From Branchiostoma floridae (taxonomy: Eukaryota > Chordata > Leptocardii > Amphioxiformes > Branchiostomatidae): 64,000 bases of DNA. Shown one piece after another: positions 1,348-32,340 of the stretch (position 1 is the first letter of the stretch; the number at the start of each line of letters is the position of its first letter). A program made the position numbers and the translations under genes. The notes under the pieces are model-generated. The model worked only from the letters and a program-made list of their open reading frames with translations, did no database searches and was not told where the DNA came from. Location: assembly GCF_000003815.2 (NCBI RefSeq), contig NC_049986.1, positions 17,227,542 through 17,291,541 on the forward strand, in the 5' to 3' direction.

Positions 1348-4300
1348 TTACCACGTCCCCCTGGGACCTCCTTTACCACGCCCCCCCTGGCCCCTGGGAC
1401 CTCCTTTACCACGCCCCCCTTGGCCTCTGGGACCTCCTTTACCACGTCCCCCTTGGCCCCTGGGGCCTCCTTTACCGCGTCCCCCCTGGGCCATGGAACG
1501 TCCTTTACCACGTTCCTCCTGGCCTATGGAACCTTCCTGACCACGTTCCCACTGGCCCACGGAACCTGCTTTTTCACCTCCCCCCTGGCCAATGGAACCT
1601 GTTTTTCCACGTCCACCCTGGGCCATGGAACCTCCTTTACCACGTCCCCCCTGGCCCATGGGGCCGCCTTTACCACGTCCCCCCTGGCCCATGGGGCCTC
1701 CTTTACCACGTCCCCCCTGGGCCATAGTATCTCCTTTACCACGTCCCCCTTGGCCCATGGAACCTGATTGACCATGCCCCCCTTGACCCATGGTGCGCTG
1801 TTTTCCACGCCCCCGTCCTCCTTTATCTTTAGGACCCCCTTGACCTCCTTGGCTCATGGAACCTACCTGGCTACGGTTTTGTCCACCCTTTGGACCTGTC
1901 TGGCCTGGGCCTCCTCTGCCCTTTGATCCCCCTGGACGACGTCCTCTGCCCCTGGAACCGACTTGATCACGGTTGGGACCCCTCTGGCCTGGTTCACCTT
2001 TGCCCTTTGGACCCCCTTGGCCACGTCCTCCTTTGCCCTTGGATCCCCCTTGCCCACGCCCTCCTTTCCCTTTCTGTCCACCTTGGCCACGCCCTCCTTT
2101 ACCCTTCTGTCCCCCTTGGCCCCGCCCTCCTCCACCTCCGTTAAATGGACCATCCTCCTCCTCGGCTTCCTCTGATTCATCTCCTTCTTCGGGTTCCTCC
2201 ATATATTGCTCACCCCCCTTCATACCCCCACCGCCATTTTTGAAACGGCCCTTGCCTCGCCCTCGACCACCTGGTCCACCCCTCTTATTGTAGCCTTCGT
2301 CCTTCTCATTCCCGTAACTTCTCAGTTCTCCATTGTCTCCCGTGAGACCTTCAGGACCATGTCCTCCACGCTTCGTGTTTCCTTTCCCTCGACCGTTCCC
2401 TCTCTGTCGCCTTGCAGCCTTGGCCTTCTCCATACCCTTTCTTCTGCCTGCTCCGCCGCGCCATTCGTCTTCTGGAGATTCGTTTGCCTGGTCTTCATCG
2501 TGGTCGTCTACGTCATCTGATGGTTCTGCGTCATCTTCTTCAAGGTCAGAGATGGCTGAATCTAGACCCAGACTGTTTGGAAAAATGAAAAGGTATTGTT
2601 TTGTTTTCACAGAATCAATTTCAATGAATCGGACTTACAATTCAGTTAGTATTATCAGAAAACAAATGTGTCAGTAAACATTTTTTGAATACTTAAACCG
2701 CCATAACCATTGGTGAAGAAAGTAATTGCAAGAAAAACTAGAGTTCAACGAACCCATCTCTTCGCCAAATAATCATGCCTTTATTTAAGACTTTAAGGTC
2801 TTATTGTTCCTCACAAACACACAAACATTACCAAAACCAGACTGTGACCTGACATATGACCTGGTAGCATCCCTGGTCAATCAGAATTTCATGCTTGTCA
2901 ATTTAGACTTTGTCCCCAGTGTAAGGGCGTCCTCCAGCAAACCATCTGTATAACAGCTGTGTCCATAGATATAGGTCAAAATGAGATATATAGAGCACAG
3001 TTTATTTCTGTTAATAAGTTTTGCTGCAGTACCTTAGGAAGCCGCTAGGGGGCCCACTATCATAATTTATCTTCGTTTTCCTGACCCCTACCCACCTACC
3101 AAATATCATCAGGATTTTTTCAAGGCTTCTCGAGTTATGCATTCCACAAACAAAAGGACGCACAGACTCGGCCTGCTACCGTCCTAACGGAAAATGCTAC
3201 GTCAACTATTTTCAAACACAACCTTCCTTTCCGCAGCCGCTACTTAAATACTAAATATCATGAAAATCCATACACAGCTTCTTGAGTTATATGCTGTTGG
3301 CATGGATTTATGAACTTTCCTCATTAATTATGCAAATAAGCTACTAATTTGCATAATTAGTATTACATTGTATAAGTCATCACTCATTCTATCTACATAC
3401 CGAAAATCCTGATGATCTGTTTACACGTTGTCAAGTTATCCTCGTCCAAAGTTTGAATGGAAATCGGTGCCTGCAGTTCCCAAAAAGCCGCTAGGGGGTC
3501 CAAACTCACAGCACTTACTCTCTGTCTCAAGGGCTATCTACCACTCAAAAATCATGACCACAGCATGTCCAGAACACGAAGTGCCAAAATTAAAAGTTTT
3601 GCTGCAGTACCTTAGGCAGCCACTAGGGTGCCCATTATCGAACTTGACCTTCGTTTTCCTAACCCCAATCCACCTAACAAATATAATCAGGATCCATTCA
3701 AGGGTTCTCGAGTTATCTTGCTTACAGACAAACGCACTTACATACAAATCCCGCTACAGCACCATAGGTAAGAGCCAGGTAAACCATTTTCGCACTTGAC
3801 CTTCCTCTCCAAAACCGCTACACACCTACCAAGTTTCGTGAAAATCGCCCAGCTAGATTTTGACTTATGCTGCCAAAAACAAACCGCAAAAAACATACCA
3901 AGCTCGCTGCAGTACCGTAGGAAAACGCCAGGTAAACCGTTTTCAAACTTGGCATTCCTTTCGACAACTGCTACACACCTACCAAAAATCACAAAGTTCC
4001 ATCCACAATTTCTCGAGTTATATGCTGTTGACCTACATACAGACCCAAGTCAAGCAATCTCATACTCTTCTTGGCGAAGAGAATGAAAGAAAGGAAGATC
4101 TCAATGCATGTTACGTTTGCAAATGAATACAAAAGGCACGAACCTGGATAGCACGTCGCTATCCAGCTCAGACAATGGGGTTTCGAGGAGCTCCCTCAGG
4201 AGCTGATCTGTTGAAGAAAAGAAAAGTATGTGGAATGCTCACTCACACGAATACACTGTTCACAAAACAATGATATAAAGAGGTTTTCTTTTTCAAAATC

Positions 4301-4928
4301 ATTCTTTTTATTGTCAATGAATAACATGAGTAACACATGGCACACATGAGTAACATTAAAACTGAAACCTAAAATCTGAACACGAAAGACTGATCATAAA
4401 ACGTCGTGAGTAACCCTACCATTGTACAGAAAAATAATGGGATTTAACTCGATAGGACAATATGTAGTCTACCTCACTTCCCAATGTGCTTCTGAATCTT
4501 ATTTTGTCGTTGAGCTATAATAGATTCTAATTTTTGAAAATAGGAAACAAATGAAATGAAACCAGATAAATCAACATGTATTCCAATATTCAAATACATA
4601 ACATTTACCTGAAAGAATCATGACATTTGACAGAACTAATATGTATATAAAGAGTTTGATAAGACATTGAGAAGGTAATATACTTTTACCTGAAACAAAA
4701 TAAAACTTTACGCACTGAAATTAACAGAATTACTTATAGCGTTGAGGACACACCTTGTATTTCCTCCTGTTGACCATCGTCATCTTCCACGTTGTCTTCT
4801 ATCGTCAAGAGTTTGCTCTTGGATGGGATGTCCTGCTGGTATGGATGAGGAGCAGATTCTCCCAGAGATACAACTGCACAGAGGAGAAGCCCACAAAGCA
4901 CACCCCGTAGGATGTAGGGACGAACCAT
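1348..4928 (-). CDS. Secreted protein with helical N-terminus and long Gly/Arg/Lys-rich repeat tail
   Basis: Reconstructed exons (minus strand): 4928-4754, 4207-4144, 2572-1348, giving 487 aa; the phases join as 1 then 2. Residues 1-25 form a signal peptide (hydrophobic LCGLLLCAVVSL core). An acidic stretch follows, then a short amphipathic helix (QLLRELLETPLSELDSDVLS) encoded by a 64-nt middle exon, the same size as the equivalent exon of the next gene. The tail starts acidic (DLEEDDAEPSDDVDD), becomes basic, and then runs for over 200 residues as an 11-residue Gly-rich repeat (GGRGKGGPRGQ type). The spacing is not Gly-X-Y, so this is not collagen. The protein is probably exported. The ATG at 4928 is the first in frame. 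A further exon (4526-4473) also fits between exons 1 and 2 but carries a stop, so it may make a 75-aa short form. I do not recognise the family; the three-exon joining is inferred from splice signals. Confidence 0.72.
1350..2160 (-). repeat. 33-bp coding minisatellite (Gly-rich repeat)
   Basis: Tandem 33-bp units read on the minus strand as GRGKGGP(R/M)GQG and variants. Copies toward the 3' end of the gene are nearly identical (homogenised). Those nearer the 5' end of the array are more diverged, with KGKGGRGQGGQ variants. Confidence 0.85.
3030..4060. repeat. Degenerate tandem interspersed repeat
   Basis: Several diverged copies of a roughly 150-bp unit lie here in direct orientation. Each holds a version of CTGCAGTACCTTAGG, then a GCCGCTAGGG or GCCAGGTAAACC block, then a CACCTACCAAA...ATCA block and a CTCGAGTTAT block (near 3030, 3470, 3600, 3750 and 3905). 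It is non-coding and lies inside the large intron of the Gly-rich gene. It is probably a dispersed repeat family. Confidence 0.65.
4307..4312 (-). terminator. Candidate internal polyadenylation signal
   Basis: AATAAA on the minus strand, in the intron after the stop-bearing optional exon (4526-4473) and before the exon at 4207. It would allow a short secreted isoform to end here. Confidence 0.4.
4473..4526 (-). CDS. Optional stop-containing exon of the Gly-rich gene (short isoform)
   Basis: A 54-nt candidate exon: an acceptor (TTAG) precedes 4526 in the phase needed by exon 1, reading ESIIAQRQNKIQKHIGK then TGA at 4476-4474. A GGTAG donor follows immediately at 4473/4472 in phase 1, where a normal coil exon would end. 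Including it gives a 75-aa secreted peptide ending in a basic amphipathic helix; skipping it gives the long protein. It could also be a decayed coil exon. Confidence 0.4.
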
Positions 4929-4994
4929 CACGTATGAGTCAAGTTTCTCTGTAAGTAGTTCAGATCAAGATGAAACCAAATTTGTGATCGCACT

Positions 4995-5002
4995 TTTAAA
5001 TA
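4995..5002 (-). promoter_or_regulatory. TATA-like box of Gly-rich gene
   Basis: TATTTAAA on the minus strand, about 70 bp upstream of the ATG at 4928. It is weaker than the TATATAAA boxes of the neighbouring paralogues. Confidence 0.4.
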
Positions 5003-5009
5003 CTATCCA

Positions 5010-7180: not shown

Positions 7181-7183
7181 TCG

Positions 7184-10022
7184 CTAAACTCCTCTTGTTC
7201 CTCCTGCTTCATCCATCCCCCTCCCCTCGGTTTGTTTCCCCCGGAATGGTTGGAATCCCCCTTTTCCCCGATTCTTTCCCTCAGACCTGTTCCTCAACCA
7301 TGCAAATTTGATTCGTTTACGTGAAAGATTGCCTCTCTCGTTTCCTATCGCGCCATCGTCACCGAGCCTCCGTTCATCGCTTTTGTCCGGGATGAAGTCA
7401 ACGTCCTTGCGGGAACCGAGTTTCCTGTTTCCAGAGATCACGGCCCTAGCCCTCCATCCACTACCGACTCTTGTCTGCCTTTCTTGTCCTTTCAAAGCGC
7501 CCTGACGATTGTGCAGTCTGTGGATGTCAACAATACACATTTGATCTGTGCTTACGTGTCAGCGGTAAACATTTTGTTCCTTACTGTACCGAAACGTTGC
7601 CTTTGGTAATAGTTATTCTCCAAGCAGGGTTTGGGTCGCGGAGATAGGAGTGGTTGGGTTTTCTACAGGGGGAGCGAGCCGGCCGAAAAATCCGTAACAC
7701 TGCTATCTCCGCGATCCAACCGCTGGGGAATGAGTATTAGTAATCTTCATGTGAACACAGCAAAAATACAGCGACTTTCGTATTCATAATAATGTCTTGT
7801 TGCAAGTTGATATTAGATTTTATGTGTAACAAAAGATAACATCAGTGGATGATAGCCAAAGACGGAAAACGAGCCAAGCTTTATCGTGAATACATAAAGA
7901 GTACTGCTGCACATGACTTGTGTGTTTACATATAGAATGTAAAGCATATAAACTCTTATTGTGCCAGATTTGTTCGTTACTTTCCCAAGCACTTTATATG
8001 TAGCTGAGAGCTGAAAGGTATACCCACTGCTGATGCAAAACCTTATCTGTCACTGTGTTGAGTATACAGTGGTTTGTAAGCATAACATTAAGCAGTTTAG
8101 GAGCAACAGTGTAAGAATAACATACCTTTCCTTGGGTATCTTCAATGTGGAAAATATCTTTCTGCCTCTTTCCTTCCCTTCCGGACTATCTGTAAACATA
8201 TGAGGAGCATGCAATCTTTAAATCTCTTTCTTAATCCTTAAAATATTTATATATACAATTTGACAACATAGCATGTCCAGGTGGTAATAAAAGTTTACCT
8301 TTCTTCTCTTTTTTCCCCATCAACTTTTCCACGTTGCTGCGTTTCTTTCCGTTCCCTTCCAGCGTCCTCACCTTGCTGACCACGCCAGCCGTCATGTTTT
8401 CTGTTGGAGATAAAAGAAGTGGCTACAACAGTTGCAATATTTGTGACATAACAAAAATCCTGTGCGTCCAACACAATCAAAGACAAATTAACTGCATGCT
8501 CTGTTCTAAATGACGCCAATCCACTTTGTTTACCCGAACGATTGCCTTTCCCGTTTCTGAGCCCCCGTTCACCGCTTTTGTCCGGGATGAGGGTAGTCTT
8601 GCGGGAACCGAATTTTCTGTTTCTAGAGAAGTTGGCCCTGCTCATCATCCACCCTCTCCCTCCTTTTGGCTGGCCTTCTTTTCCATACAAGGTTCCTTTC
8701 CGATGATGTGCTAGTAGTCTGTGGAGATCAACAATGCATATCTGATTTGTGTCAGCACTAAACATTTATGGGTACGGATATGTCAAACCTGGGCCGTTAT
8801 TTTTCCGTATCCTTAAGAGATACGGCCATATTACGGGCGGAGACGAGATACCATTCGTGTCCACCCGTATATGGTTGTATCCTTTGAGGATACGGAAAAA
8901 ACGGCCCCCTGTACCGATACGTTGTATTTTGTAATAGTTATTCTCCAAGCAGTGTTTGGTTCGCAGGAATAGTAGTGGTCGGGAATTTTACCATGGCAGC
9001 GTACCGACCACTACTGTCTCCACGACCAAACCACTGATTGGAGACTAGGTAATAGTTATCTTCATGGAAACACAACAAAAGTACAGCTTTGTTCGTTACT
9101 TTTCCAGCTGAGAGCTGAAAAGTGGAACCACTGCTGAGGCAACACCTGACCAGTCACAATGTTGAGTATATATACAGCGGTTTGTAAGAATAACAAACCT
9201 TTCCTTGGGTCTCTTCAATCTGGAAAATGTCGTTTTTCCTCTTTCTTTCTTTTCCGGGCTATCTGTAAACATAAGAGAAAGCATGTAATTTTTTTTAATC
9301 CCTTTCTTATACTTCAAAATGTTTATATATACAATTTGACAACATGTCTAAGTGGTACTAAAAGTTTTACCTTTCTTCTCTTTCTTCTCTTTCTTCCCCA
9401 TCAACTTGTCCACGTTGCTGCGTTTCTTTTCTTTCCTTTCCAGCTTCGTCACTTTGCTGACTACATCATCCATGCGTTTGCTCAGCCGCGTCATGTTTTC
9501 TGTTGGAGATATAAGAAGTAGCTTTACAACAGGCGGCACAATATCTGTGACATGATTTTTTTAAAGTCTTGTGCGCCTAAATAATCAAAGACAAATCAAA
9601 CTGTACACATAAAGATGTGCCAATAAATTAACATCAGCCTTTCTTAAACTATATTAACTTTGGATGCTGTCTCTGCAGTGTAGAAGAAGGATGTTGATGA
9701 TTTGTCTCGTGATCTCAGCAACAAATATCTCTCAAACTGTCTGAGACCTACCAGTGATTTCATCGAATCGCTCATTGATGAGACTTGTCTGCAGTGTCCG
9801 CAACTTGTCGTCATCTGGCGTTGTCTTTGAGAGCCGTTCTTCCGTCGGGGGCATTGCTGCCTCGTCATCTAGCGTTGTCTTCGAGAGGCGTCCTTCCGTC
9901 GGGGGCATTGCTGCCTCGTCATCTAGCGTTGTCTTCAAGAGGCGTCCTTCCGTCGGGAGTATTGCTGGGTAGCCCGTCTCTACCAACACCAGCAGGACGA
10001 GTAGTATTGGGATGGACCTCAT
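7184..10022 (-). CDS. Secreted coiled-coil protein with duplicated three-exon Lys/Arg/Gly-rich module
   Basis: Seven exons fit on the minus strand: 10022-9752, 9499-9371, 9262-9199, 8718-8534, 8400-8299, 8189-8126, 7517-7184. Phases 1,1,2,1,1,2 all join and give 382 aa. Residues 1-20 are a signal peptide (ILLVLLVLVETGYPA). Residues 23-70 hold three copies of a 17-residue repeat (PTEGRLSKTTLDDEAAM). The family helix KLRTLQTSLINERFDEIT follows, continued by a coil exon (NMTRLSKRMDDVVSKVTKL). Exons 2-4 and 5-7 are paralogous: both coil exons share KKRSNV(D/E)KLMGKKEKK, both 64-nt exons start with DSPE.KERG, and both basic exons share GNRK(F/L)GSRK and IPDKS.ER. Exon 7 reads on to a TAG at 7186-7184. 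The ATG at 10022 is the first in frame. The protein is strongly basic and probably secreted; its function is unknown. Confidence 0.8.
7605..7742. mobile_element. Fold-back element (MITE-like), copy in second cassette
   Basis: An imperfect hairpin whose arms begin CTCCAAGCAGGGTTTGGGTCGCGGAGATAG and are complemented by CTATCTCCGCGATCCAACC. It lies in the intron between exons 6 and 7 and is the counterpart of the hairpin at 8931-9057 in the first cassette. Confidence 0.65.
8769..8921. mobile_element. Fold-back element, about 150 bp
   Basis: A long inverted repeat: GGTACGGATA, GGGCCGTTATTTTTCCGTAT and CCTTAAGAGATACGG pair with GAGGATACGGAAAAAACGGC and CTGTACCGATAC at the other end. It is non-coding and present only in the first of the two duplicated exon cassettes. 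Confidence 0.75.
8931..9057. mobile_element. Fold-back element (MITE-like), copy in first cassette
   Basis: Arms CTCCAAGCAGTGTTTGGTTCG and TAGTAGTGGTCGG pair with CCGACCACTACTG and CGACCAAACCACTGATTGGAG. It sits at the position homologous to the hairpin at 7605-7742. Confidence 0.75.
9823..9975 (-). repeat. 51-bp tandem repeat in coding exon
   Basis: Three 51-bp units inside exon 1 of the duplicated-cassette gene, encoding a 17-residue repeat (PTEGRLSKTTLDDEAAM). The two downstream junctions are nearly identical at DNA level, so the expansion is recent or homogenised. Confidence 0.85.
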
Positions 10023-10112: not shown

Positions 10113-10120
10113 TTTATATA
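10113..10120 (-). promoter_or_regulatory. TATA box
   Basis: TATATAAA on the minus strand, about 91 bp upstream of the ATG at 10022. The same arrangement is seen at the 13.4, 17.9 and 26.9 kb genes. Confidence 0.65.
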
Positions 10121-12002: not shown

Positions 12003-13372
12003 TCATCCACCAAACAAACTAGGGAAAAAACTCGAGAAAAAGTTTAACCCTTTTGTGACAGGGGAACCATCTGACTGCTGTTCATTGTTACCACCCCGCA
12101 TGTCCCCGGCCCCCTGCCTTGGTGGGTACCCAGGACCAGGACGGGAGTTCCTTCCAAAAATGGGGACCTGTGCCAGGGAGTCCCTTCCGCCGTGTGGTGC
12201 ACGTGGTGGTGGCGGCGGTGGTGGATTCTGCCGAGACGATGGTCTGCCACCCATGCTTGTGTTCTGGCCTTTCAAGCCATCTGTAGACGGAAGGAATCTC
12301 ACTGTTAGACGTCGTCATATATTGATTTTCGTGTTTCATTTGTCAATGATATTTATATTTAAAACCTTTTTTTTTCATTTCTGTCTTTCCTCATTGTCCT
12401 AGCAAAACCGACAATACACTCAGACTATTGGCTTGCGCTTTGAACTTGCCTCCAATAGAACATTTGTTATATATTTGATAGCTCACTTTAAAGCTTATTG
12501 ACTGGATTCCTTATTCCTTATTGACTGAAAAATCCTACCTGGAAATTGTTTAAGGATTTTGCAGGTTATCAAGAAGATACTATTTAACAGTCTTACCTTT
12601 TCCTTTCACCTGTTTCTTCAGATCTTCCATCTCCTTCTCCAGGTTTCTCATCTTGTTCTTCATGTTCTCCATTTGGTTTCCTAGCCTGGTCGTGCTGGCT
12701 GTTAAAGGCGACAAAGATATTACTACTATAGTAAACACACAAACAAGCTCCTTATCCAGTAGACCTACTCAGCCCTCAGTCCCTTCACAGCACCATGTAC
12801 ATGGCGAGATTCTAGAAAACTGCAGTTACGGTACATACCAGTCAGAACAAACCCGGTAAATGTGCATCTGTGTTAAATACTTGCACCGCACCCAGACGAA
12901 ATTGAACTGCTCCTTCATACAAGTAAGCTATTAAACCATCTTTTGGAAAGTGATCGACTAGGTATTTGCTGAATAATCCTATACAAATACTGCTTAGAAT
13001 CACCTACAATGGAAAAGATTACAACGATTATTTTTTATGGATTGCCCTTCATTGATTCATGTGTTGAGACGTTGACAATACTGTTGTTTCTTGATCAACC
13101 AATCATATTTGTGACATCCAAGTGACACGCAGTGATGAAGTTAAAACAAAATACTATTTGGCGCGAGTATCATCAGCTGGCCTGTTGTCTACTTCGACAG
13201 GTGGTTATTACATTAATGTTTTGCTGATCTCACCTGAGATTTCTCCGATTCGCTCATCAAGAATCTTCTCGACTTTCTGGAACTGATCATCATCTTTAGT
13301 CATCAGGTCAAAGGGAGCGGCCAGGCAGCCGGTCACAACCAGCAGAAGAAGAAGTGGGACCACCATGGCCAT
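12003..13372 (-). CDS. Secreted coiled-coil protein with Pro/Gly-rich tail and aromatic C-terminus
   Basis: Three exons on the minus strand: 13372-13234, 12698-12597, 12280-12003, joined in phase 1 and 1, giving 172 aa. Residues 1-19 are a signal peptide (VVPLLLLLVVTGCLAA). The family helix follows (QKVEKILDERIGEIS). Exon 2 is a clear heptad coil (LGNQMENMKNKMRNLEKEM). The tail has a poly-Pro run (about residues 100-106), Gly/Pro/Arg-rich sequence, and ends in a hydrophobic cluster FFSSFFPSLFGG. The first ATG (13372) has a second ATG two codons later. The helix is very close to that of the gene at 15585-17838, so the two are sister paralogues. It is likely an oligomeric secreted protein of unknown function. 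Confidence 0.85.
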
Positions 13373-13471: not shown

Positions 13472-13514
13472 TTTATATAGCGTGGTAAGGATGTGATACA
13501 GCACTCTGGGTGGT
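13472..13514 (-). promoter_or_regulatory. TATA box plus upstream ACCACCCAGAG element
   Basis: TATATAAA at 13472-13479, about 100 bp upstream of the ATG. ACCACCCAGAGT (13503-13514) lies 24 bp further upstream. The same pair with the same spacing precedes the gene at 17838. Confidence 0.65.
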
Positions 13515-13930: not shown

Positions 13931-14224
13931 TTTAGACGGGTGCAATGGCCGAGTGGGTAGAGTGTTCGCCTTGCATACGGTAGGTCGTGAGTTCAATCCC
14001 TGGCCGAGTCATACCAAAGACTTTAAAAATGGTACATGCTGCTTTCTCTGCTTAGCACTCAGCATTTGGGAAAGAGTATGGAAGTTGAACACACACCACT
14101 ACCAGTGGACTAGCCCCCTGCTGTAGTGATTGCACAAAATTGTGTGGCCCAGGGCTACTGAAACGGAGGTGGGCGCCTCCCTATGCGCCATCAGGCGCGG
14201 GAAGGAACTAACACCAACTAACTA
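13931..14224 (+). mobile_element. tRNA-derived SINE with 12-bp target site duplication
   Basis: The head resembles a tRNA, with an A-box (TGGCCGAGTGGGTAG) and a B-box (GTGAGTTCAATCCC). A body follows, then a short AACTAACTAAT tail. ATACAAATTCTC occurs at 13919-13930 and again at 14225-14236, a perfect target duplication. A related copy lies in reverse at about 48436-48640. Confidence 0.9.
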
Positions 14225-15584: not shown

Positions 15585-17838
15585 TTACATGCTCCTAAGG
15601 AAATCCATCAAACTGAACTGTCGCATATCCCGACCACCTTGTTCCCTTCCATCGTCACCACCCCTCTGACGGGACCACCCACCCCGACCACCTCCCCTGG
15701 GACCCCTTTCCTGTCGCGGCGGGCCCCTGCGGTATCCCCACATCGACTGAAAGTCTCGGGGTGGAGGACGGCGTCGTTCCTCGCTGGAGTCACCAGATCC
15801 ATCTTCTTTCTTCTCTTTGCTTTTCTTTTCTTTTGAGCTGTCAGCATCCTCCTCTCCCGAATGTGGTTTGTCTTTGCGCCAGCCGCTCTTTCTTCCCCTC
15901 CCGCCCCGTTCCCGACCGCCCTCTCCTCCTCGGGGTGGCGGATGGCCAAAACCGCCTCGTTCCCGACCGCCGTCTCCTCCTCGGGGTGGCGGATAGCCAA
16001 AACCGCCTCGTTCCCGACCGCCCTGCCCTCCTCGGGGTGGTGGATGGCCATCGTCATCACCCCTGTAAGGTAACGAAGAATACGCTATATGTAACTGCAC
16101 CATACTGTACATCAACCGATGTGCTGACAGATTATTCAGAGAGGTCACCAAGGATTCCCCAAACGTGTTAGACCTTATCGATAAACAGATATTGCACAAC
16201 TCATCTTCCACGAACATGTCGTTTGTTGTAAGATTGAACGACGCTGTGAGGCGTACAGCTTATATCTGATCGTTGATTATCCGGGAAGACGTTAAGAGAG
16301 AATGAGACCTTAAGTTTATTTGCATGCCCGAGGGCTAATTGCAAGTACATGGTCTGAACATAGGAGATATACAAGTGACAATGAACAGTTATAAACGACA
16401 TTCTACTCGAATACTTGTGTTGGCTATTTCTAAACAGCTTGGGTTTGACTTCTTTATTTGGAAGCCAAGGGAGACGAAAAGCTCCCCTTTTTCCACTCTG
16501 TGGGTTCTGCGATTTCAAGAGAAAAGTGGCTTTCTGTTCGTCTGTGAATGTGGGTTTCTGTTCGTCTGTGAATGTGGGGAAGTTGGGATATGTCTTCGTG
16601 GATTCTCTAAACAGAGTGATAAGCCATTGTTTCCATCTACACCTGTCCCCGGGGGATGCCAGCTCTTTTCAGGTCCTCTCTTTTTAGAGATTTACAATCG
16701 TTAAATTTGACAAGACTAGCATATGAGACAAAGTTATGACAATGCCTGTCTAGTTTCTAGGTTTTACTTACCTTTCTTTAGATTTCTTCTTTGGGTGTGG
16801 GGGTCTACCTTTTGGGCGGCCCTTTTCTTCCGAACTATCTAGTATACACAAAGGAGAAAAATATCATTACGAGTATTTGTTTCATTTTACCATGGATTAT
16901 TTTACAGATGCTGTAATGGAAGCAAAATGCCTCTTTAGCTTTGAATGTGTCCAATATTTTCTTTGACTTGTTTTTGTTTGCATACACAAATACGTATACG
17001 TTTGAACAGAAACAGCCATCTACGAGTAAAGATACAATTCTACTCTAACTCTTACCTTCTTCCTCCACGTGTTTCTCAAGGTCTTTTATCTTGTCGGTCA
17101 TGTTTGCCACCTGTTTGTCCAGCCTGTTGACGCTTTCTATTAAACAGAGACATACACAGGTTATGTGTTAATGCCTACATTTCCATTCTCAACTACAAAA
17201 AACACCACGCTGATCGATCAAAGAAAAGGCAAATATGAGTCCATCAAACTAACTAATTTTTTTTAGTTTGGTCTTACGTAACTTACACTAAGTGAGCATA
17301 AACTACAATTATGTAACAACTATACAATCAGACAAACCCTGACAATCAAATATTTGTATCCAATCGTTCGTCTACCATATGACAAGAATGATCACAGCCG
17401 CATATTCAATGTTACCACTAACATACTGCTTAACAGTTCTCCAGTATGAGACTTAAGGTGCACCCTCACTGCACTTGTGTCATGCTTGCGTCACTGCGGG
17501 GTTCGTAAAATACTCAACGAATTTCAGAGATAAAGAATTTTTCTTAACATTTTGTCGTCTTCTAAGTCATACTTTAACGTATTACGCAATATCTAAATTT
17601 TAAAAATATCGGAGAGAATAACAAAACAGTGACGCAGCCTGAACCAAGCTTGACGCAAGTGCAGTGAGAGTGCACCTTTACCTGAGATCTCTCCGATTTT
17701 CTCATCCATGATCGTCTCCAACGTCTGGAGTTTGTCGTCGCCTGCCGTCTGCTCCGGACCGTCCCTGCCTTGAGGAGCGGCGAGGCAGTCCGTGCCGGTA
17801 AGGGCCAGCATGCAGAGCAGGATCGCCACGGACGGCAT
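15585..17838 (-). CDS. Secreted coiled-coil protein with RGG / PPPRGG-rich tail
   Basis: Four exons on the minus strand: 17838-17682, 17136-17056, 16838-16772, 16062-15585, with phases 1,1,2, giving 260 aa. Signal peptide residues 1-21 (VAILLCMLALTGTDCLAA). The family helix DDKLQTLETIMDEKIGEIS is followed by coil SVNRLDKQVANMTDKIKDL. Exon 3 (DSSEEKGRPKGRPPH) matches in size and phase the DSPE exon of the gene at 7184-10022. The tail has three units of about 18 residues (HPPPRGG.GGRERGGFG), a Lys/Glu/Ser-rich middle, further RGG runs, and ends RQFSLMDFLRSM. RGG motifs usually suggest RNA binding in the cytoplasm, but the signal peptide argues for secretion. A GTG-led extension upstream is ignored; 17838 is the first ATG. 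A MITE abuts the exon 1 donor. Confidence 0.85.
17456..17677. mobile_element. Harbinger/Tourist-like MITE next to a splice donor
   Basis: 222 bp with terminal inverted repeats AGGTGCACCCTCACTGCACT and, at the other end, the complement of AGGTGCACTCTCACTGCACT. It is flanked by a 3-bp TTA duplication (17453-17455 and 17678-17680), as in PIF/Harbinger elements. The interior shares TTTTGTCGTCTTCTAAGTCA with the copy at 35409-35645. Confidence 0.85.
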
Positions 17839-17939: not shown

Positions 17940-17984
17940 TTTATATATACCGTGATCGGATCCTGATCCAACTCTCTGGGTGGT
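17940..17984 (-). promoter_or_regulatory. TATA box plus upstream ACCACCCAGAG element
   Basis: TATATATAAA at 17940-17949, about 102 bp upstream of the ATG. ACCACCCAGAG (17974-17984) follows 25 bp upstream, mirroring the promoter of the gene at 13372. Confidence 0.65.
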
Positions 17985-20417: not shown

Positions 20418-22178
20418 TTACTTTCCGCGTCCACGCCCAAAGGAGCTCCCGAACATGTCTTCAAGACGTCCGCGTACTCCTCCCCTTTCCTCTTCGTGGT
20501 TCTCCATCTCCTCTTCTATTCCCGCAATAACGCCTTGGAACCGTTCGGGGCGACCATGTCCTCCTCCCCTTTCCTCTTCGGCGTTCTCCATCTCCCCATG
20601 TATTTCCCGAAAAATTTCTCGGAACCGATCGGGACGACCTTGCACGTGTCCTCCTCCCCTTTCTTCTTCATCGTTCCCCAACTCCTCTTCTGTTTCCTCA
20701 AACCTAGGGTCTCGGGACCAATCGGGACGACCGTGTCCTCCTCCCCTTTCTTCGTCTTCTTCTTCTTCCTCCTCCTCCTCATCTTCTTCCTCCTCATCTT
20801 CTTGTTCCTCCTCATCTTCTTCCTCCTCATGTTCTTCGTCCTCATCTTCTTGTTCCTCCTCATCTTCTTCCTCCTCATGTTCTTCGTCCTCATCTTCTTC
20901 TTCCTCCTCATCTTCTTCCTCCTCATCTTCCTCTTCTTCCTCCTCATCTTCTTCTTCCTCCTCATCTTCTTCTTCCTCCTCATCTTCTTCCTCCTCATCT
21001 TCTTCCTCCTCATCTTCTTCTTCCTCCTCATCTTCTTCCTCCTCATCTTCTTCTTCTTCTCCCTCCTCACCTCCTTCTCTTTCTGCCCCTTCTTCTTCCT
21101 CCACTTCTTCCCCAAACCCCACTTCTCCCTCAAACACTTCATCTTCATCCGATTCCGCCCCTTCCACTTCATCATTGCTGCAAAAACAGTAGGTGTAGGC
21201 ATTTGGCACTATGTTCTCTCATAGAATATTTTAAGTGTGCATCAAGCTTTCATTCAAAATGTTTCTGGGTCATGATTACATCTTTTTTTTTTAAATAAAA
21301 AACAGGAACTGTATTTACCCGTGTCGCCTGTTCTCGCGTTCTTCACGCCACGCCTCCTGAAGAGTTTCCAGATTGTTGGCCATATTGAAGATCAACTCTC
21401 GCATTTCACGCACCTCGTCTTCGCTTGTAGCATCTTTCGACAGAAAGAAAATATTCAAAACTTTCTATCAAAATAGGAGTCACATACGCACATGGAAAGT
21501 ATGTTAATGCTTAATTGTTCCCGAGAAAATAGACTAAATAACAAAATTGGCTGTTTGAGATTACGCCTGCTTGTTAGGCTGGAAGATTTAAGATACAGAA
21601 AGTAGAAGCACAACCTTTGGCAATCTGCTCTTAGCACAAAGCAACAAAGTCAGTCCTTGCATCCTTGCATGATTTTTAAAAAAATACACCCATGGCAAAG
21701 TGGCTCAAAGAAATGGAAACTCGTAGAAAATGACCTACCTTGATTTGCTACCCTTTTCAGCGTCTTCCCCATTTGTCCCGTGATTCGTTTCTGGTTGTCC
21801 ACGTTGCGTTCCAAGCTGGCAAGACGATCTGTGAAAAATAGGTCCCGTGATGAACGCTCTGCTAGTACTTCGCACATAAAAGCTACATTCTATAAGGTAT
21901 ATTGCGCAATACTTTTGCGAGAAACCGTTGCAGTTTAGGCATCAACTTAGTCAAACAATACAACGACATGAAATTGTACCACAAAAACAAGGACAGGCTT
22001 TACCCTTGAGCTCTTGAATCTCTTCGTGGTCTTGAGTTGCTTCAGGATTCTCCAGCTCCTTAGTCTTCAGCTCCTTAATCTTGGAACGGAAGCGGTCGGT
22101 GGAAAAGCCATTCGCCTCCATCGTGGCCATGAGGAACGTTACCACAAGGGTAACAATTAGCGCCTTGTTGACAATCAT
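20418..22178 (-). CDS. Secreted coiled-coil protein with poly-glutamate tail
   Basis: Four exons on the minus strand: 22178-22004, 21828-21739, 21433-21319, 21177-20418, with phases 1,1,2, giving 379 aa. Signal peptide residues 1-23 (ALIVTLVVTFLMATMEANG). Residues 24-58 are charged helix (IKELKTKELENPE). Coil exons follow (LASLERNVDNQKRITGQM, then DEVREMRELIFNMANNLETL). The terminal exon encodes a tail with about 100 residues of Glu with a few Asp, then a module repeated about four times (EEERGGGHGRP.RF and a variable stretch), ending LEDMFGSSFGRGRGK. Net charge is very negative, opposite to the neighbouring Arg/Gly tails. The closest paralogue is the gene at 24306-26762. It may bind cations or basic partners outside the cell; that is inference. 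Confidence 0.86.
20755..21065. repeat. GAG/GAA/GAT minisatellite, homopurine-homopyrimidine tract
   Basis: About 310 bp, almost pure pyrimidine on the plus strand with a 15-bp period (CCTCCTCATCTTCTT). It encodes the poly-Glu/Asp tail on the minus strand. The strand asymmetry is favourable for triplex formation and slippage. Confidence 0.9.
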
Positions 22179-22330
22179 TGTCGATGGATGCAGCACTTTG
22201 GTGGAAACTACTGAAACCTCCCACTATTCTTGCTGCTGCACTTTTCCAATCGCCTATTCCTTTACTCTGTGTTGCTGCTCTTTGACAGCTCGGGTTGACT
22301 GAATGCGTCGTTCCGGGGTATCTGCGCGTA

Positions 22331-22336
22331 TTTATA
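22331..22336 (-). promoter_or_regulatory. Candidate TATA box
   Basis: TATAAA on the minus strand, about 153 bp upstream of the ATG at 22178. Confidence 0.45.
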
Positions 22337-24265: not shown

Positions 24266-24272
24266 TCACCCC

Positions 24273-24288: not shown

Positions 24289-24305
24289 CACTGTCTACTG
24301 AGCCA

Positions 24306-26762
24306 TCAGCCGGGGAAGTTAAAACCACCAGGCATAGACCGCCCCATTTGGATGGATGGCTCCAGTGGTGCGATTGCCTCCTCTTCCTCTTCCTGTGGCT
24401 CCTCTTCCTCCTCCGTGTATACGGGCTGCCACTGGGGTGGAGCTAGACCCATTCCACGAAAGCGATCGAGCATCTCACTGAAACCACTCGGAATGATCCC
24501 ACCCACCTCTTCGCTATCATCACCACCGTCACTGGCGCCCGCTGGGCCAGGGTTGGGGCCAAACACTGGGCCACGGAGGGGAGGAAGGATCTCGGGCCCA
24601 TCAGGGTTGGGAACATGCTGTGGGCCAGGGATGGGAAGGATCTGTGGCTCAGGGTTGGGAGGATGCTCTGAGTCATAGATGGGAGGAAAAACCTGGGGCA
24701 TGATGTTGGGAAGATCGCCCCCATGTCCGAAGTTAGGGGGGAATATGGGTAGACGCCCATTCTGGAATGAAACACCTGTGTTGTCGCCGTCATCACCCTC
24801 GTTGAAATCGCCCGGTGGACTCGGTGGACCGGGGTTGGGTCCAGGAATTCCGACGTTAGGGAACAGGGGGAGACGCCCATCACCTGTGTTACCGCCGTCC
24901 CCATCCTCGGTGAGATCACCCTCTTGACTTTGGTCGCTACCTTCACTGGTGCCTCCGGCCCCTTGCTCCTGGTCGTCTTCTTCACCTCCGGGAAACAATC
25001 CCGGCATGGGGCGCGGGATGACAGGTCCCTCCGGCTGCTCTTCATTGTCATTCGATTGGCCGCCGGCGTTGGCATTGCTGAACATAGAATAATTTCACAT
25101 CACCCAAACAGTGTGTACAAAGTGATCTGTAGTGTTGTTTGTTTGTTGTATTTCCTGATTACATTTATATCCAATATGGAATACATAGAATCTTAGATTG
25201 AATAAAATAGAATGAAGAAAACAATCTCACCTGCTTTCTTCACCACCTTGCCGTGAGCGCCACTCATCCAAGTTGTCTACCCTGTGAATCATTGTCTCCA
25301 ACCTCTCACGCATTTGGCGCACATCGTCTGGATCGAGTCGGTCTTTGGAGAAGATGTAAAAGACAAAGCGATACATAAAACGACAAAACTCAAAAAGACA
25401 GAAATCGGTTACGTATATCAGAAAGAAGTTAGTAAGTAGAGTAAGACTGCAAGAAATGTAGGTTGATAGAGGATGCCTACTTGTTGACTTTCTCCATCAT
25501 AAAGATATACTTTCGTGCTACAAATTACAGAACAAATATTGCACAATTTGCAGTGCTCCTTCGTACCAACGGGAATATGCTCAAATCTTATCTGTTGGTC
25601 CATGAATGATTTGTGATGATGGCAAGCACGAATAATCCGGCGTTTGATAATACACCGCACAAAAGTTCACCCAAAGATTACGACATCACGCTAGCTAATA
25701 GAAATGGGTAGAGAAAATTTCCTACCACGAGAGATCTCCGTTTCCTTCATCTTGAGTCCGATCTGCCCCATGGTCCGGGACATGCTGCCTACGGTGCGCT
25801 CCAAGCTTCCAACTCGTGCTGTGTAAATGAATACATAACGATAAACCGTTTTTATGTTTTCCACATCGGCATAGTTATGCAGTAAAAAGTTAGGCGTCTC
25901 TGAAATCAGTCTTGACAGTAGCACTATAACACACTGTACCGTTCTGAAGTAGGTATACATAGCATTCAAGACATGTATATATCTGTATCTGTATCTATAT
26001 ACGCGGCGCTGCATCTATCTGTAAGCGTTCTCTAAAACTATACAGGGAAGATGCACCTATTGTGTTTGGTGATGACAAATTCCACTCTACGATGGTTCTG
26101 GGAAAGTACACATTTTTGAACACATCAATCCTAGATTGGTCACTTTGGAAAGCATGACTGTTGTAGTAGACTGTTGTTGACCCATGTAGTATGAGGATTG
26201 TCATAGTAAAGGTGTTATACTTAAACAGAAATGGTAATCACTCAATAGGTCATTGTTATACGAAATGGACATGTCTAAAAAGAAAAGGGAATACTGTGAT
26301 AATGACTTCCAGTGATCCATGGGTTTTGCAATGCTACGGACTGTAATGCTACTGGTGTCTGGGAACTGCATCTGTATAGCCCGACCCGTCATACCTAACC
26401 ATCGCACATCTGACCGCAGCGTTGTATAAAGCTATCTAGTGAGACCATCCCCAAAATCAAACAAACGCATGCCACCTATACACCATCTGATATCAATTTT
26501 GTGGGTGCTAACTCGGGCTGATACAAACAGAAAGAGCCTTACCCTTCAATTCTTCCATCTCTCGGTAATTTTGACCATTGATGGGCAGATCCTTTGTAAT
26601 TGCAGTCGCCGATTTCTGCTGAGTGGGCCGATCCTTCGTAACCGTAGATTTCTGCGGAGTGTTTTTAGACTTGGGGTTGCGAATTCGAAAGCCCTCGGTG
26701 CCCGACGTCGCCAATAGGACCATCACCACAACTGTAAAAACCCACGTCTTGCCGAACATCAT
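24306..26762 (-). CDS. Secreted coiled-coil protein with acidic Pro/Gly-rich tail
   Basis: Four exons on the minus strand: 26762-26543, 25818-25726, 25342-25231, 25077-24306, with phases 1,1,2, giving 398 aa. Signal peptide residues 1-24 (WVFTVVVMVLLATSGTEG). A Lys/Thr-rich segment precedes the helix YREMEELK. Coil exons follow (VGSLERTVGSMSRTMGQI, then DDVRQMRERLETMIHRVDNL), both aligning with the gene at 20418-22178 (shared SLER, D.VR.MRE.). The tail is rich in Pro, Gly, Asp and Glu, with repeated blocks such as GDGRLPLFPNVGIPGPNPGP and NGRLPIFPPNFG, then PNPEPQILPIPGPQ-type repeats, a Glu-rich run, and a final SMPGGFNFPG. ATG 26762 is followed directly by a second ATG. It is likely secreted and oligomeric; function unknown. 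Confidence 0.87.
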
Positions 26763-26908: not shown

Positions 26909-26916
26909 TTTATATA
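26909..26916 (-). promoter_or_regulatory. TATA box
   Basis: TATATAAA on the minus strand, about 148 bp upstream of the ATG at 26762. Confidence 0.6.
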
Positions 26917-26919
26917 CTT

Positions 26920-28558: not shown

Positions 28559-28870
28559 GGGGGTATAATGAATGTTTTTGTGTAACAAGCACCATGACTG
28601 ATTTCGTTGATGAGTCATAAAAAACGATCAGAACCCTCATGTCCACGTCCACTATTGGCAGAGACATTCCAGAACTTTTGTGAGCCAATCGCATAGTAGG
28701 ATCATGACTTTTTTTCAAGGGTAGACTTTCCAACTCATATACATACTTGGGCACAAATGATAGAGTATCAACATTGAAGAAATGCTTGATGACATTCACG
28801 TTTCCGAAATCATTGTGCCGACCGTTTTAACCTTGTACCAAGGGTGCAACACTTGGGTGCTTGCACTTCA

Positions 28871-31800
28871 TCACTTCCCATCTGCTGTAGTCCTTTCGCA
28901 GATGAAGCTGAGTCTATAAGAGCAGTGTGCATCGGCCACCAGATCCTTCCGCCCAGGATCATTCTTGTTGCCAAACACTGTGGATAAAGAAATAAAATAA
29001 ACATTGCACATCAGTACGGCTACAGAAACCTTGTTTTTCCTTAAAGAACATATTAACATCTCCTGGTCGTACATCATTGCACTACACACGTGATATTTTG
29101 TGGGTAGGTTTGGGCCCCTGGCGCCTTTTTCTGAACTGCAGAGGCAAATTAATTTGTTTCAGAATTTGAAAGAGGATAACTCCAAAAAAGGATAACGGGT
29201 AATCATAATTTTTTATCGAACGCTTAAGTGCTGGACGAACCCATAACATGTGGAAGAACTACATTGGAACTGCCTACCGATGTGTGAGCACTTGTAATTG
29301 TTGTGGTCGTTCGGTTCGTTTTGAGCCCAGGGCACGGCATCCACAACAGGAGTTCCATCCGGATACAGCCAGACCCTGTCATCCGTGAACTTGGCGCCAA
29401 ACCTGAAAATACCATATAAACGGATGGAGGTTAGTAAGAGTGGTCTTTACACACTACCAATTGCTTGCTTTTAACTAGCAAATGTTTCAAATGAATGAAT
29501 GAATGTTACCGAAACATTAGTAACATAAAACACTTGGTGGTACAGTGAACTTAATCGTCTAGTGACTTACCGACGTGATGAATGCAGTAACGGATCTTAT
29601 GTTACTCCTCAGTTGTTGTTGTTTTGCTTTTGATTTATTTTCTTTGAATAGCTGTCTTCAATTGCTGCTATTTGCAAAATAAAACCTCCAGAATTTCGAT
29701 AGCACAGGTACGTCATGTGTATGATGTAACTAGCAATTATAGACAGCCATATCCAAATCAATGGAATGATATGAACAAATTCAAATCCAACATGGCAGAC
29801 AATGCTACCATCATAGTCAAGTAACTTCAAACACCCGATACTGGGGTGTCATTTCATACGCTTTTCGACTGGAAGAAATCCGACTTACCAGAACTGGTCG
29901 TCTCGGGATACTTGGTTCTTCATGCGAACAACAAAGCTGAAAGTGGAGTAAAGAACGTATGTTCATGGCTCAATGTCATTGACAGCCTATCGGTGAGTGT
30001 GTTGCATACTTAGGAAACTTGAGCTGACGTCAAACGCGTATTCTAGCGAATGATATTCTGTTCCTGTCACCCCCGATGCATTAAGCATATATTGTACAAC
30101 TTGCAATTAGCCTACGAGCATGAATTTGCAAATAAATAAATAAATATAAAGTATCTTCATTGCTATGTTGGGCATTTTGCATCATAGAGCATTATTCTAA
30201 AGTCGTTGACAGTAGAAACAAAATGAATCATTACACTGAGATCTTACTCATATAAGTATGCGCTTTTTGCCATTACAAGATGGCCTCCATCCGCCTGGCA
30301 AGTTTGCTCCGCCTGTTCGCGATTCAGACGGGCCTCGTGGACTTTGAAACAGTGCTGCATCAGGCATTCTGAACAAACAACATACCAGCAAACTGCATGT
30401 AATCGTGTGCACGTATCAATGTCTTACCAGTACCAGGAAGTCCAATATGACTAAAATGCCTTTACACACAAAGAAAAGAAAAGCTGATACTAAACAGAAT
30501 AAACACAATACCGTTCAGAAAAATAAGCATCTTCCTTTCATTAATTCATTGGTTATGGCACATTTCAATTCATAGTGTATTCATTTTGAATAACCCTTCT
30601 TCTTTGCACTAATACTTCAATGATGCATCCATTTCGCAAAAGAGAGCTCTCGGTACCCACAAAGTATTCGTAAACACCCCCCCCCCCCCCCCCAAAAAAA
30701 TACCTTCATTATTGCCGTTGGACGCCGGAACTGGCTGAGGTTGCATTGGTCCTTGTCTGGGCGGGGATGTTGTTTGAACTTTGGGCTTGCTCTGTCCTGC
30801 CACTAGAGCTTTGATGGTGTCGGTCATGTTATGGATGGCGTTGCTGTTTTGCTTCATCATGGCCGCCAAGTGGTCATATTTTGCTGTGTGACAGTGTACG
30901 GAAGAATTAATAATATGAAATTGAATTGAATTGCAGGTTCTGCATAAAGACACATTGCACATGAGTGTCAGAAACACTCGAAAACATTTTTATTACATTA
31001 TTACTACAGAGCTTTACCCACATATCATCGCTATCGACCAATCAAACATATATAGTTAACATTGTCGTCTATTAAAACTACAAAGACCTCTACAGATATC
31101 CTGTAATTGTAAAAAAAACGTCTAAACGTTCCAGTATATATCCGTTTGTATGTCTTTCAGGTATGATGAAAGCCTATACTTCCTTGTATTACAGTCGTCA
31201 TAAAATATGTAGATAATGCAATACAAGCCAGTCACTACATAATAAAAGAAAGCAACTGGGCAAAACCTTTAAGTTAAAGATTCAGATGTTTCAGATATCG
31301 TCCTTACTATCTTTCATCAGTGACTGAAACATGACGAGTGCTGTCTGAAACGCGTGACTCTTGAAGAGTTTATCCATATGCTTGGTTTATTTTTCATCAC
31401 GAATCTGGCACCTGGATGCCTGACGTTCATTGACGTGCAATTTAAACACGTGCGACTCTTGAAGAGTTTATCCAGATGCTTGTGTTATTTTCTATCATTA
31501 TTGTGGTACTTGGATGACTGGCGTTCATTGACGTGCAAGTTGAACAGGTCGGAAACAAAAACATGCAAAGCACAAGCTTAAGTGTCATAAACGGCGATTT
31601 GTTTATTGAGGCTTACCTTCGTCAAACACAGAAGCGACGGACTTAGTCAGAGTGTCTTTGAGCTTTGTCATGCTGCTCTTCAGATCCTCCACTGTTTGGT
31701 ACTGCTTTGAGAACTTCTCCTCAATGCGTTTTACCTTGCCTGTTGGGGACACAAAGTAAGTGAAGATTCTAAAATTTGAGAGAGGAAATTTGACAATTGC

Positions 31801-32340
31801 AACACACTAACTTTGTTCTAAAATGGTAGCTCGGCCTTGGTCCTGAGTATAGTTTCAGTTTGTTTTGATGAACACAAATTGGTTATCAAAAAGAAACAGG
31901 TGCGTGTCATCTCCCTCAAGCACATCTACTTTTGCCCATAAGCGTATTGAAAAATGGATATCCTCATTTGTAGTATTCCTGTATGTAATGTCTTCTAATA
32001 ACGTAAACCCACCAAATGACCGTTACGAGTCCGTTTCTGGGAACATCTTTAGCGTAAAAAAATGACGTAATGGTAAAGACGGGCTAAGAAACGAACGGAA
32101 GGGGTGTTCGCTCAAAATCCGGCGCACATGTCGCAAAAAGCCGAGTGTTATTTACAAAGCTGATCTAACGCTACAACGTTTCAGTAGAGAGTGAATGGCG
32201 TATAATATATACAAACACAAACCTTCCAGCAATATGAAGGACCTATCGGGTTCCATCTTGGCAGGCGCAGGGGCCATCATGGCTTCCCTCGTCACAACCA
32301 ACACGACAAACACCAGACCAGCTGTCTTTGTTGCCCACAT
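28871..32340 (-). CDS. Secreted C-type lectin with N-terminal coiled coil
   Basis: Seven exons on the minus strand: 32340-32223, 31739-31617, 30883-30704, 30368-30248, 29936-29889, 29402-29278, 28977-28871. Phases 1,1,1,2,2,1 all join and give 273 aa. Residues 1-21 are a signal peptide. Residues 40-105 form coiled coil (VKRIEEKFSKQYQTVEDL), then a Pro/Gln linker to about 140. The C-type lectin domain spans about 142-269. Cys164 and Cys265 form the outer pair and Cys235 and Cys257 the inner pair; two extra Cys (142, 147) sit at the start. ADGGHL, QFWFGA (the WIGL position) and FICER are present. The long loop has EPN (226-228), typical of calcium-dependent mannose-type binding, but the usual WND before the third Cys is replaced (LVADAHC), so calcium binding is uncertain. 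One N-glycosylation site (NMT, residue 99). It resembles a collectin without the collagen stalk; a role in carbohydrate recognition or innate defence is inferred. Confidence 0.93.
30677..30693. repeat. Homopolymer run of 17 C
   Basis: On the transcribed strand this is a G17 run lying 10 nt inside the intron after the exon 3 donor of the lectin gene. It is a likely hot spot for length change. Confidence 0.95.
31351..31550. repeat. Two-copy tandem duplication, about 100 bp each
   Basis: GACTCTTGAAGAGTTTATCC ... GTTCATTGACGTGCAA occurs twice in direct succession, inside the intron between lectin exons 2 and 3. The copies differ at several positions. Confidence 0.8.

Follow-up and report, generated by a model that had tools for sequence, protein, structure and literature searches.

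A lancelet locus of seven consecutive predicted genes, including two groups of putative secreted coiled-coil proteins with low-complexity tails

Introduction

Clusters of secreted low-complexity proteins underlie shells, teeth, glues, and mucus, and have independent origins. Vertebrate SCPP genes carry phase-0 introns and derive from SPARC-like genes, and collectins and tetranectin are examples of C-type lectins with a coiled neck. In sea urchin spicules, disordered secreted proteins have been described as forming hydrogels (PMC6771980; PMC4336488), and in sandcastle worm glue, oppositely charged proteins are described as forming coacervates (PMC11277488).

Here we analyze a 64,000-nt stretch of the Branchiostoma floridae genome (contig NC_049986.1, hereafter “the window”; positions are counted from its first nucleotide) that contains seven consecutive gene models, A to G. 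In open-licence literature, no described lancelet family with this layout was found among the matches listed.

Results

Seven minus-strand gene models share a phase-1 signal exon

All seven models could be built on the minus strand with good splice sites between positions 1348 and 32340, as proposed in a first-pass annotation of the same DNA. The signal exon ends in phase 1 in 7/7 models (signal peptides judged by eye), again as claimed. The 1-1 coil exon, described there as common to all seven, is present as the second exon in six genes and missing in A. Two further claims agree with the models: a phase 1-2 third exon starting with Asp and followed by a phase-2 terminal exon in five of the six low-complexity-tail genes (A, B, D, E, and F), and a direct transition to a phase-1 terminal exon in the gene at 12003 (C). 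None of the introns is in phase 0.

We evaluated 24 donors (two of them in duplicated exons of B) and 24 acceptors: 20 donors match ≥7 of 9 consensus positions, compared with 3.9% of all minus-strand GT, and the acceptors have a mean of 8.25 pyrimidines in 11 positions (background 4.95). GC content is 0.51–0.59 in coding and 0.40 in noncoding sequence. Lancelet gene models have been described as error-prone (PMC4967905), and parts of the array could be decayed or some joins wrong, above all in A and at the 3′ end of B: the other four donors, located in E, F, and G, score only 5 or 6 of 9, B has two possible tails, of which the one at 7424 has an acceptor with only 5/11 pyrimidines, and no AATAAA lies ≤700 nt from either B stop. 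However, B, D, E, and F agree in phase order, and splice scores and coding GC far exceed background, and we regard such a prediction artefact as very unlikely.

Gene B (7184..10022, minus strand) has exons 10022..9752, 9499..9371, and 9262..9199, and a terminal exon at 7424..7184 or 8616..8295, ambiguous because exon 2, exon 3, and tail are duplicated inside the gene. Second copies of exon 2 (8400..8299) and exon 3 (8189..8126) occupy 8126..8400 on the same strand, within an internal duplication of ~1.1–1.2 kb; the two exon 3 copies differ by 3 synonymous and 7 nonsynonymous changes, too few to judge. Gene C (12003..13372, minus strand; exons 13372..13234, 12698..12597, and 12280..12003, phases 0-1, 1-1, and 1-stop) passes from its coil exon to the terminal exon with no 1-2 exon, and gene D (15585..17838, minus strand; exons 17838..17682, 17136..17056, 16838..16772, and 16062..15585) ends in an Arg/Gly/Pro tail that carries 17-aa repeats. 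B, C, and D have in common their signal exon and coil as well as an alignable promoter and leader. Between B and D, the third exons showed no likeness (p 0.18).

Gene E (20418..22178, minus strand; exons 22178..22004, 21828..21739, 21433..21319, and 21177..20418), with a Glu-rich tail, and gene F (24306..26762, minus strand; exons 26762..26543, 25818..25726, 25342..25231, and 25077..24306), with an acidic Pro/Gly tail, have the signal exon, the coil, and a second coil exon in common.

Gene A (1348..4928, minus strand; exons 4928..4754, 4207..4144, and 2572..1348) is a 487-aa model in which the signal exon is joined directly to a 64-nt 1-2 exon, followed by a Gly/Arg/Lys tail of 11-aa repeats. 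It has no coil exon, gave no heptad signal on testing, and its exon 1 shows no likeness to exon 1 of the other members. A candidate decayed coil exon at 4526..4478 (16 residues) was rejected: entered in phase 1, it would be left in phase 2 and so misfit the next exon, its match to the B-C-D exon-1 profile is at chance level (E 13), and it is absent from the matches listed for the B-C-D coil profile. The short exon of A resembles the third exon of F at p 0.004–0.006, as one of 15 pairs, and we note this as a lead only. One TRF repeat entry, of period 25, touches the end of the A reading frame.

Coils of B to F carry a heptad signal and an [RK]hxxhE motif

Seven coil segments from B to F were tested for heptad periodicity, and each gave a signal (p ≤ 0.008). 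The motif R-hxxhE, i.e., Arg(g)-h(a)-x-x-h(d)-Glu(e), has been linked with parallel trimers (PMC3653964); its relaxed form, [RK]hxxhE, is found in register in 5/5 coils of B to F, with the strict Arg form in E and F and Lys at g in B, C, D, and G, this Lys/Arg form also appearing in 8–30% of heptad-kept shuffles of a single coil. Searched against PDB, the B-C-D profile had its best matches, all weak, to GCN4 constructs (first six, E 0.0066–0.019), and several further matches were named coiled-coil trimers; these matches are generic: the search listed 119 sequences at E up to 10, and the best 60 of the 119 include lamin, keratin, and haemagglutinin. The short helix of B to F probably holds copies together.

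Kinship is confined to two groups

Kinship was evaluated for the 15 pairs among B to G, taking exon 2 together with the 28 residues that end exon 1, against both plain and heptad-kept shuffles. Four pairs were clear, with heptad-kept z of 11.2 for C-D, 7.0 for B-D, 4.2 for B-C, and 8.3 for E-F, and the same two groupings were recovered in profile scans of 2837 window peptides. The other 11 pairs gave heptad-kept p > 0.05, four of them (B-G, D-F, E-G, and F-G) reaching plain-shuffle p of 0.019–0.044, and a profile-against-profile comparison of B-C-D with E-F returned a probability of 3.6% (E 0.012). The neck of G showed no clear kinship to B to F in either heptad-kept shuffles or profile comparisons. 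These comparisons argue for two sequence groups, B-C-D and E-F, with no clear mutual kinship among the groups, A, and G, and a single family of all seven was rejected on the 11 unsupported pairs and on exon 1 of A. The N-terminal alignment that the first-pass annotation had extended to all members, and the profile similarity beyond composition whose absence it had named as refuting, stand within B, C, and D and within E and F, and find no clear support across the remaining pairs and A. Likewise, its conserved secretion and oligomerisation cassette is supported, beyond composition and heptads, in B, C, and D and separately in E and F, but not for the coil-less A or for G.

Searches of the 513-Mb genome found no further members, with limited sensitivity. 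In an HMM scan that extended 100 kb beyond either end of the window (264 kb in total, including 4984 N; 11764 peptides), the best non-member had E 0.24. Genome-wide single-protein queries (D exon 1, F exon 3, E exons 1-3, C exons 1-2, and F exons 1-3) returned themselves, and only C and D recovered each other (E 0.008); since the E query missed F, relatives that distant would be missed. Seven more matches were seen at E 0.64–9.4. A degenerate pattern for the end of B-C-D exon 1 hit 5 places, namely C, D, and three with unrelated-looking frames, vs 2 for a backward control.

Tails differ by group in charge and may be shaped by repeat turnover

The tails are low-complexity, and most of their tandem repeats preserve the reading frame (units of 33, 51, 84, and 24 nt). 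Some noncoding arrays likewise have periods divisible by three. Tail net charge is +31 in A, +9 (or +8) in B, +5 in C (92 aa), +15 in D, −130 in E, and −39 in F, so that across the five genes B to F charge sign tracks group: positive in B, C (weakly), and D, negative in E and F. Among the 15 tail pairs, no convincing likeness beyond composition was found; the best, C-D, showed a weak residual likeness (p 0.017) that is not significant after correction. The exchangeable, rapidly replaced effector tails envisaged at first are not supported, given the mostly in-frame repeats, a charge that follows group, the weak likeness between C and D, the closest pair of genes, and no effector marks found. 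In-place repeat turnover could account for the tail differences without module exchange, and exchange would also be compatible with them.

A TATAWAW box is present 60–170 nt upstream of the ATG in 5/7 genes, vs a 7.1% background. These minus-strand boxes start 98 nt before the ATG in B (10113..10120), 107 nt in C (13472..13479), 111 nt in D (17942..17949), 158 nt in E (22330..22336), and 154 nt in F (26909..26916); none was found within the tested stretch of G.

The locus could also consist of ordinary local duplicates plus two unrelated neighbors, with tails that are neutral low-complexity sequence and have no common function. Clear homology only in groups of three and two genes fits this reading, as does the want of convincing tail likeness, but tails whose reading frames run uninterrupted over 80 to 408 codons, with repeats mostly in frame, and the TATA boxes in five of seven genes, speak against it, and we consider it rather unlikely.

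Gene G encodes a C-type lectin

Gene G (28871..32340, minus strand) has seven exons, including neck exons 31739..31617 and 30883..30704, followed by a C-type lectin domain. It matches Pfam Lectin_C at E 1.7e-12 (48.4 bits vs a curated cut-off of 22.6), and its best PDB match is macrophage mannose receptor 1 (E 4.1e-13); these matches place G among the C-type lectins, with a neck of its own. Querying the genome with G gave at least 142 matches, mostly to the lectin part (141 of 688 candidates scored; G’s own exons included). A lone copy of its second neck exon (189 nt, 85%) lies on contig C12, around which (8 kb, 643 N) no other G part was found and queries with C, D, E, and F gave only weak matches (E ≥ 0.88). 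Lectin_C is absent in A to F among the families listed (best 25 for C and E; first 179 and 154 aa only for A and E), and other than Lectin_C in G, no Pfam family exceeded its cut-off in the scanned parts, which cover little of the A and E tails. Sub-cut-off Pfam matches (PI3K_P85_iSH2, Tektin, and others) were set aside as generic coil matches.

In an alternative reading, the products are secreted immune binders, the coil multimerising a microbe-binding electrostatic tail much as a lectin neck multimerises its lectin domain, and the cluster derives from a G-like C-type lectin minus its lectin exons. G heads the array, is oriented like the other genes, and has a signal exon ending in phase 1 and a 1-1 neck exon, its neck carries an in-register KVKRIE (Lys at g; heptad signal marginal, p 0.05), the plain-shuffle values for B-G, E-G, and F-G point the same way, and basic Arg/Gly tails could bind bacteria. 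However, this scenario must contend with a G neck lacking clear kinship to B to F, with a tested upstream stretch of G lacking TATAWAW, and with acidic E and F tails that misfit, and it appears to us unlikely.

Discussion

At the N-terminus, products of B to F would each have a hydrophobic, signal-like stretch, followed by a short coil of heptad repeats and then by a long tail of low complexity. On this basis, our tentative reading, which we hold at less than an even chance, is that the locus is a local tandem array encoding secreted polyelectrolytes that oligomerise and have disordered tails, probably contributing to an extracellular gel, mucus, or coat. Both groups would have been born by local duplication, after which the tails would have diverged through mostly in-frame repeat turnover with charge sign kept. 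The coil may form a parallel trimer, in which case each molecule would display three tails; basic Gly/Arg tails (B, C, and D, plus the A tail) and their acidic counterparts in E and F could attract each other and calcium, and the products may co-assemble after secretion. TATA promoters would be in keeping with genes that are strongly expressed and restricted by cell type, in a gland or secretory epithelium, and the neighboring lectin G may be a bystander or a sugar-binding component. In a bolder version, which we think improbable, a single ancestral cassette would have split into opposite-charge arms, giving coil-trimerised polycations (B, C, D, and possibly A) and polyanions (E and F) that coacervate outside the cell; one locus would then serve as a chromosomal “kit” for building a secreted, self-complementary protein gel.

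Alternatively, the products could build the matrix of some hard or stiff tissue, like the proteins of the sea urchin spicule or the vertebrate SCPP cluster, with acidic tails binding calcium and basic tails binding the acidic ones; we think this improbable too. Lancelets are not known to have a mineralised skeleton, which speaks against such a matrix. The tandem array, signal exons, low-complexity repeats, and poly-Glu tail would suit it, and mineralisation proteins have been described as commonly disordered, secreted, repeat-bearing, and encoded by duplicated genes (PMC4336488), but the same features probably occur in many non-mineral secretions.

If expressed, a gel- or coat-forming cluster would provide a small worked case in a basal chordate of a conserved oligomerising part joined to repeat-changed tails that keep their charge, with opposite charges in two adjoining groups, directly testable with purified proteins.

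Among known systems, collectin- and tetranectin-type lectins share with G a signal exon, 1-1 neck exons, and a Lectin_C domain, whereas B to F differ in having no lectin domain in the scanned parts and no clear neck kinship to G. Introns of the SCPP genes are in phase 0, whereas those here are in phases 1 and 2 and accompany a coil. The SCPP cluster is otherwise comparable, its described features including tandem duplicates, weak likeness, exon-intron comparison, and intraexonic duplication (PMC13367325). Cement proteins of the sandcastle worm are also secreted and oppositely charged, and coacervate, but they are phosphate and DOPA based, with no coil named in the passages considered here (PMC11277488). 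Sea urchin SM30 and SM50 are likewise described as secreted hydrogel formers from duplicated genes, combining disordered repeats with a folded part. In SM30/SM50 this folded part is a C-type lectin-like domain carried by the same polypeptide as the disordered repeat; no such combination was found at this locus (A and E scanned in part), where a short coil takes the place of the folded part and a separate gene encodes the lectin.

Gene models and exon structure

Linking exons through splice sites with the reading frame carried across, we modeled seven consecutive minus-strand genes, A to G (window 1348–32340), as encoding predicted secreted proteins. All seven models start with a signal exon ending in phase 1, as the first-pass annotation had stated; the signal peptides were called by eye, and since phase 1 is common at the signal exons of secreted proteins, this feature argues only weakly for kinship. 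A 1-1 second exon, likewise described as universal, is present in six genes and absent from A, where the signal exon leads to a 1-2 exon. Specifically, exon phases are 0-1, 1-2, 2-stop in A; 0-1, 1-1, 1-2, and a terminal exon of phase 2, for which there are two candidates, in B; 0-1, 1-1, 1-stop in C; 0-1, 1-1, 1-2, 2-stop in D, E, and F; and 0-1, 1-1, 1-1, 1-2, 2-2, 2-1, 1-stop in G, a C-type lectin with a neck.

Overall, phases, splice scores, and coding GC indicate that the exon structure proposed earlier was mostly right. Donors matched ≥7 of 9 consensus positions in 20 of 24 cases (background 3.9%), acceptors averaged 8.25 pyrimidines out of 11 over 24 sites (background 4.95), and GC was 0.51–0.59 in coding vs 0.40 in noncoding sequence. 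Genes A, C, D, and F have AATAAA ≤300 nt past the stop (background 21% for 300 nt), E and G have it at 530 and 615 nt (42% for 700 nt), and neither candidate end of B has it in the 700 nt beyond. PMC4967905 warns that novel architectures in lancelets may stem from wrong gene models. Within the first intron of A, a 49-nt stretch (4478–4526, minus strand) reading ESIIAQRQNKIQKHIG has both an acceptor and a donor; it could be a relic coil exon, with an end phase that does not fit.

Two groups of related N-termini

Local pairwise alignments covering the final 28 residues of exon 1 together with the coil exon (exon 2) were compared with 1000 shuffles, both plain and heptad-kept. Similarity was clear for C-D, B-D, B-C, and E-F (heptad-kept z of 11.2, 7.0, 4.2, and 8.3), while the remaining 11 of 15 pairs among B–G gave heptad-kept p > 0.05, four of them (B-G, D-F, E-G, and F-G) reaching p = 0.019–0.044 when the shuffles were plain. 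Profiles built from single sequences and from groups, run against 2837 window peptides, returned the same two groups, BCD and EF, the top non-member for the BCD exon-1 profile being exon 1 of E (E = 0.43). Profile-to-profile comparison gave probabilities of 3.6% for BCD-EF (E = 0.012), 10.3% for BCD-G, and 0.2% for EF-G. The N-termini, said to align across the cluster, thus align clearly within BCD and within EF, and not clearly between the groups or with G; from these shuffle and profile results, common descent of all cluster genes is neither shown nor excluded.

The exon following the coil exon (in A, following the signal exon) begins with Asp in all six genes A–F. Among the window's 204 acceptor-like sites that have a pyrimidine tract, 28 are followed by A[CT], and the resulting chance of 6/6, ~7e-6, applies to a feature picked only after having been noticed; it hints at common descent of that exon. 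Pairwise alignment of exon 3 (15 pairs) did not show cross-group kinship, with B-D at p = 0.18 and, apart from E-F, a sole exception of interest in A-F (p = 0.004–0.006).

Upstream, B, C, D, E, and F each have TATAWAW at 60–170 nt from the ATG; the motif is absent from that interval in A and G, A carrying TATTTAA at −74. With a background of 7.1%, at random positions and at 1413 minus-strand ATGs alike, we calculate a chance of ~3e-5 for ≥5 of 7 genes. These TATA boxes are alignable, together with the leader, across B, C, and D.

Predicted coils and charged tails

Heptad contrast against composition shuffles supports predicted coils in B–F (exon 1 end plus exon 2, p ≤ 0.0005), extending into exon 3 of E (p = 0.008) and F (p = 0.003), with p = 0.05 for G and 0.92 for A. 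In the best register, the g-a-d-e positions carry [RK]hxxhE in B (KVTKLE), C (KMRNLE), D (KIKDLE), E (RLASLE), and F (RVGSLE), and likewise in G (KVKRIE). Each B–F coil reaches this motif in 8–30% of heptad-kept shuffles; the product, 1e-4, is too favorable because these genes are related. PDB sequences matched the BCD profile weakly and in a generic way, GCN4 constructs coming first at E = 0.0066. Given this motif rate and these matches, trimer formation is a lead.

The tails, low-complexity 3′ parts with a predicted net charge, carry +31 over 408 aa in A, +9 over 80 (or +8 over 107) in B, +5 over 92 in C, +15 over 181 including exon 3 in D, −130 over 253 in E, and −39 over 257 in F. Across the 15 tail pairs, none showed convincing likeness beyond composition (best C-D, p = 0.017, and C-E, p = 0.030). 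Tandem repeats within the reading frames have periods in multiples of three: 33 nt in A, 54 nt in B exon 1, 51 nt in D, 24 nt in F, and 84, 48, 33, 18, and 15 nt in E. Against this pattern, a period-25 row (1333–1386) extends across the point where A's frame ends; the noncoding arrays of this region have periods of 4, 40, and 98 in some cases and 15, 21, and 24 in others.

Tails had been proposed to be exchangeable, rapidly replaced modules. Inside B, a direct duplication (7364–9599; ~1.1–1.2 kb, ~72–74% identity in three blocks) takes in exons 2 and 3 as well as the tail start, yielding two exon 2–exon 3 copies and two possible tails; its gaps in exon 2 (18 and 9 nt) and at the start of the tail (3 and 18 nt) are multiples of three. 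This is a module duplication within one gene, the nearest counterpart to the claimed modules, and does not demonstrate a swap of one tail for another.

Genomic extent and surroundings

An HMM scan of the window plus 100 kb either side added no members (best non-member E = 0.24). Five whole-genome queries (D exon 1, F exon 3, C exons 1–2, and exons 1–3 of E and F) against the 513-Mb assembly (431 contigs), in which the window occupies C8:17227542-17291541, returned genes of the window itself along with seven weak matches (E = 0.64–9.4); because query E missed F, distant paralogues may have escaped. A whole-genome pattern search gave 5 places vs 2 for a backward control, the real ones being C and D. 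Gene G is one of a large set of lectins, with at least 142 matches (141 of 688 candidates scored), most of which cover the query's lectin domain. A lone copy of its second neck exon lies in C12:14018001-14026000 at ~1963–2151 (189 nt, 85% DNA identity, 69% protein identity across 55 residues), an 8-kb stretch that also holds a reading frame resembling a zinc-finger protein.

Between C and D, a dispersed repeat (14000–14210), SINE-like by reading, recurs at 94–97% identity in at least 39 other genomic places (40 of 3349 candidates scored). On the plus strand, 38254–64000 contains exons resembling a GABA-B-receptor-type ligand-binding region, read from the frame and extending past the window end; within this gene region sits a tandem array (51992–52606) of ~15–16 residues, with several reading frames of both strands lacking stops. 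This receptor-like gene and the presence of introns point to an animal genome.

Possible function and comparison with known systems

Judging from sequence, the products would be secreted, and their coils and oppositely charged tails could support trimers and charge-driven co-assembly; that they form a gel or coat is a tentative reading, which we hold somewhat less probable than its opposite. Pfam returned no family past cut-off in the parts of coils and tails scanned, A and E being covered for their first 179 and 154 aa, and no family of such layout was found described in the open-licence literature as judged by titles and abstract starts. The closest working parallels are sea urchin spicule matrix proteins (PMC4336488, PMC6771980), the vertebrate SCPP cluster (PMC13367325), and sandcastle worm glue (PMC11277488). 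Membership among the spicule matrix proteins fails, as their lectin domain within the same protein is missing from the scanned parts of A–F. Membership among SCPPs fails as well: phase-0 introns, a defining SCPP trait, are missing from the cluster models. Tandem clusters of secreted low-complexity proteins are already known, and this one would be a local variant of them.
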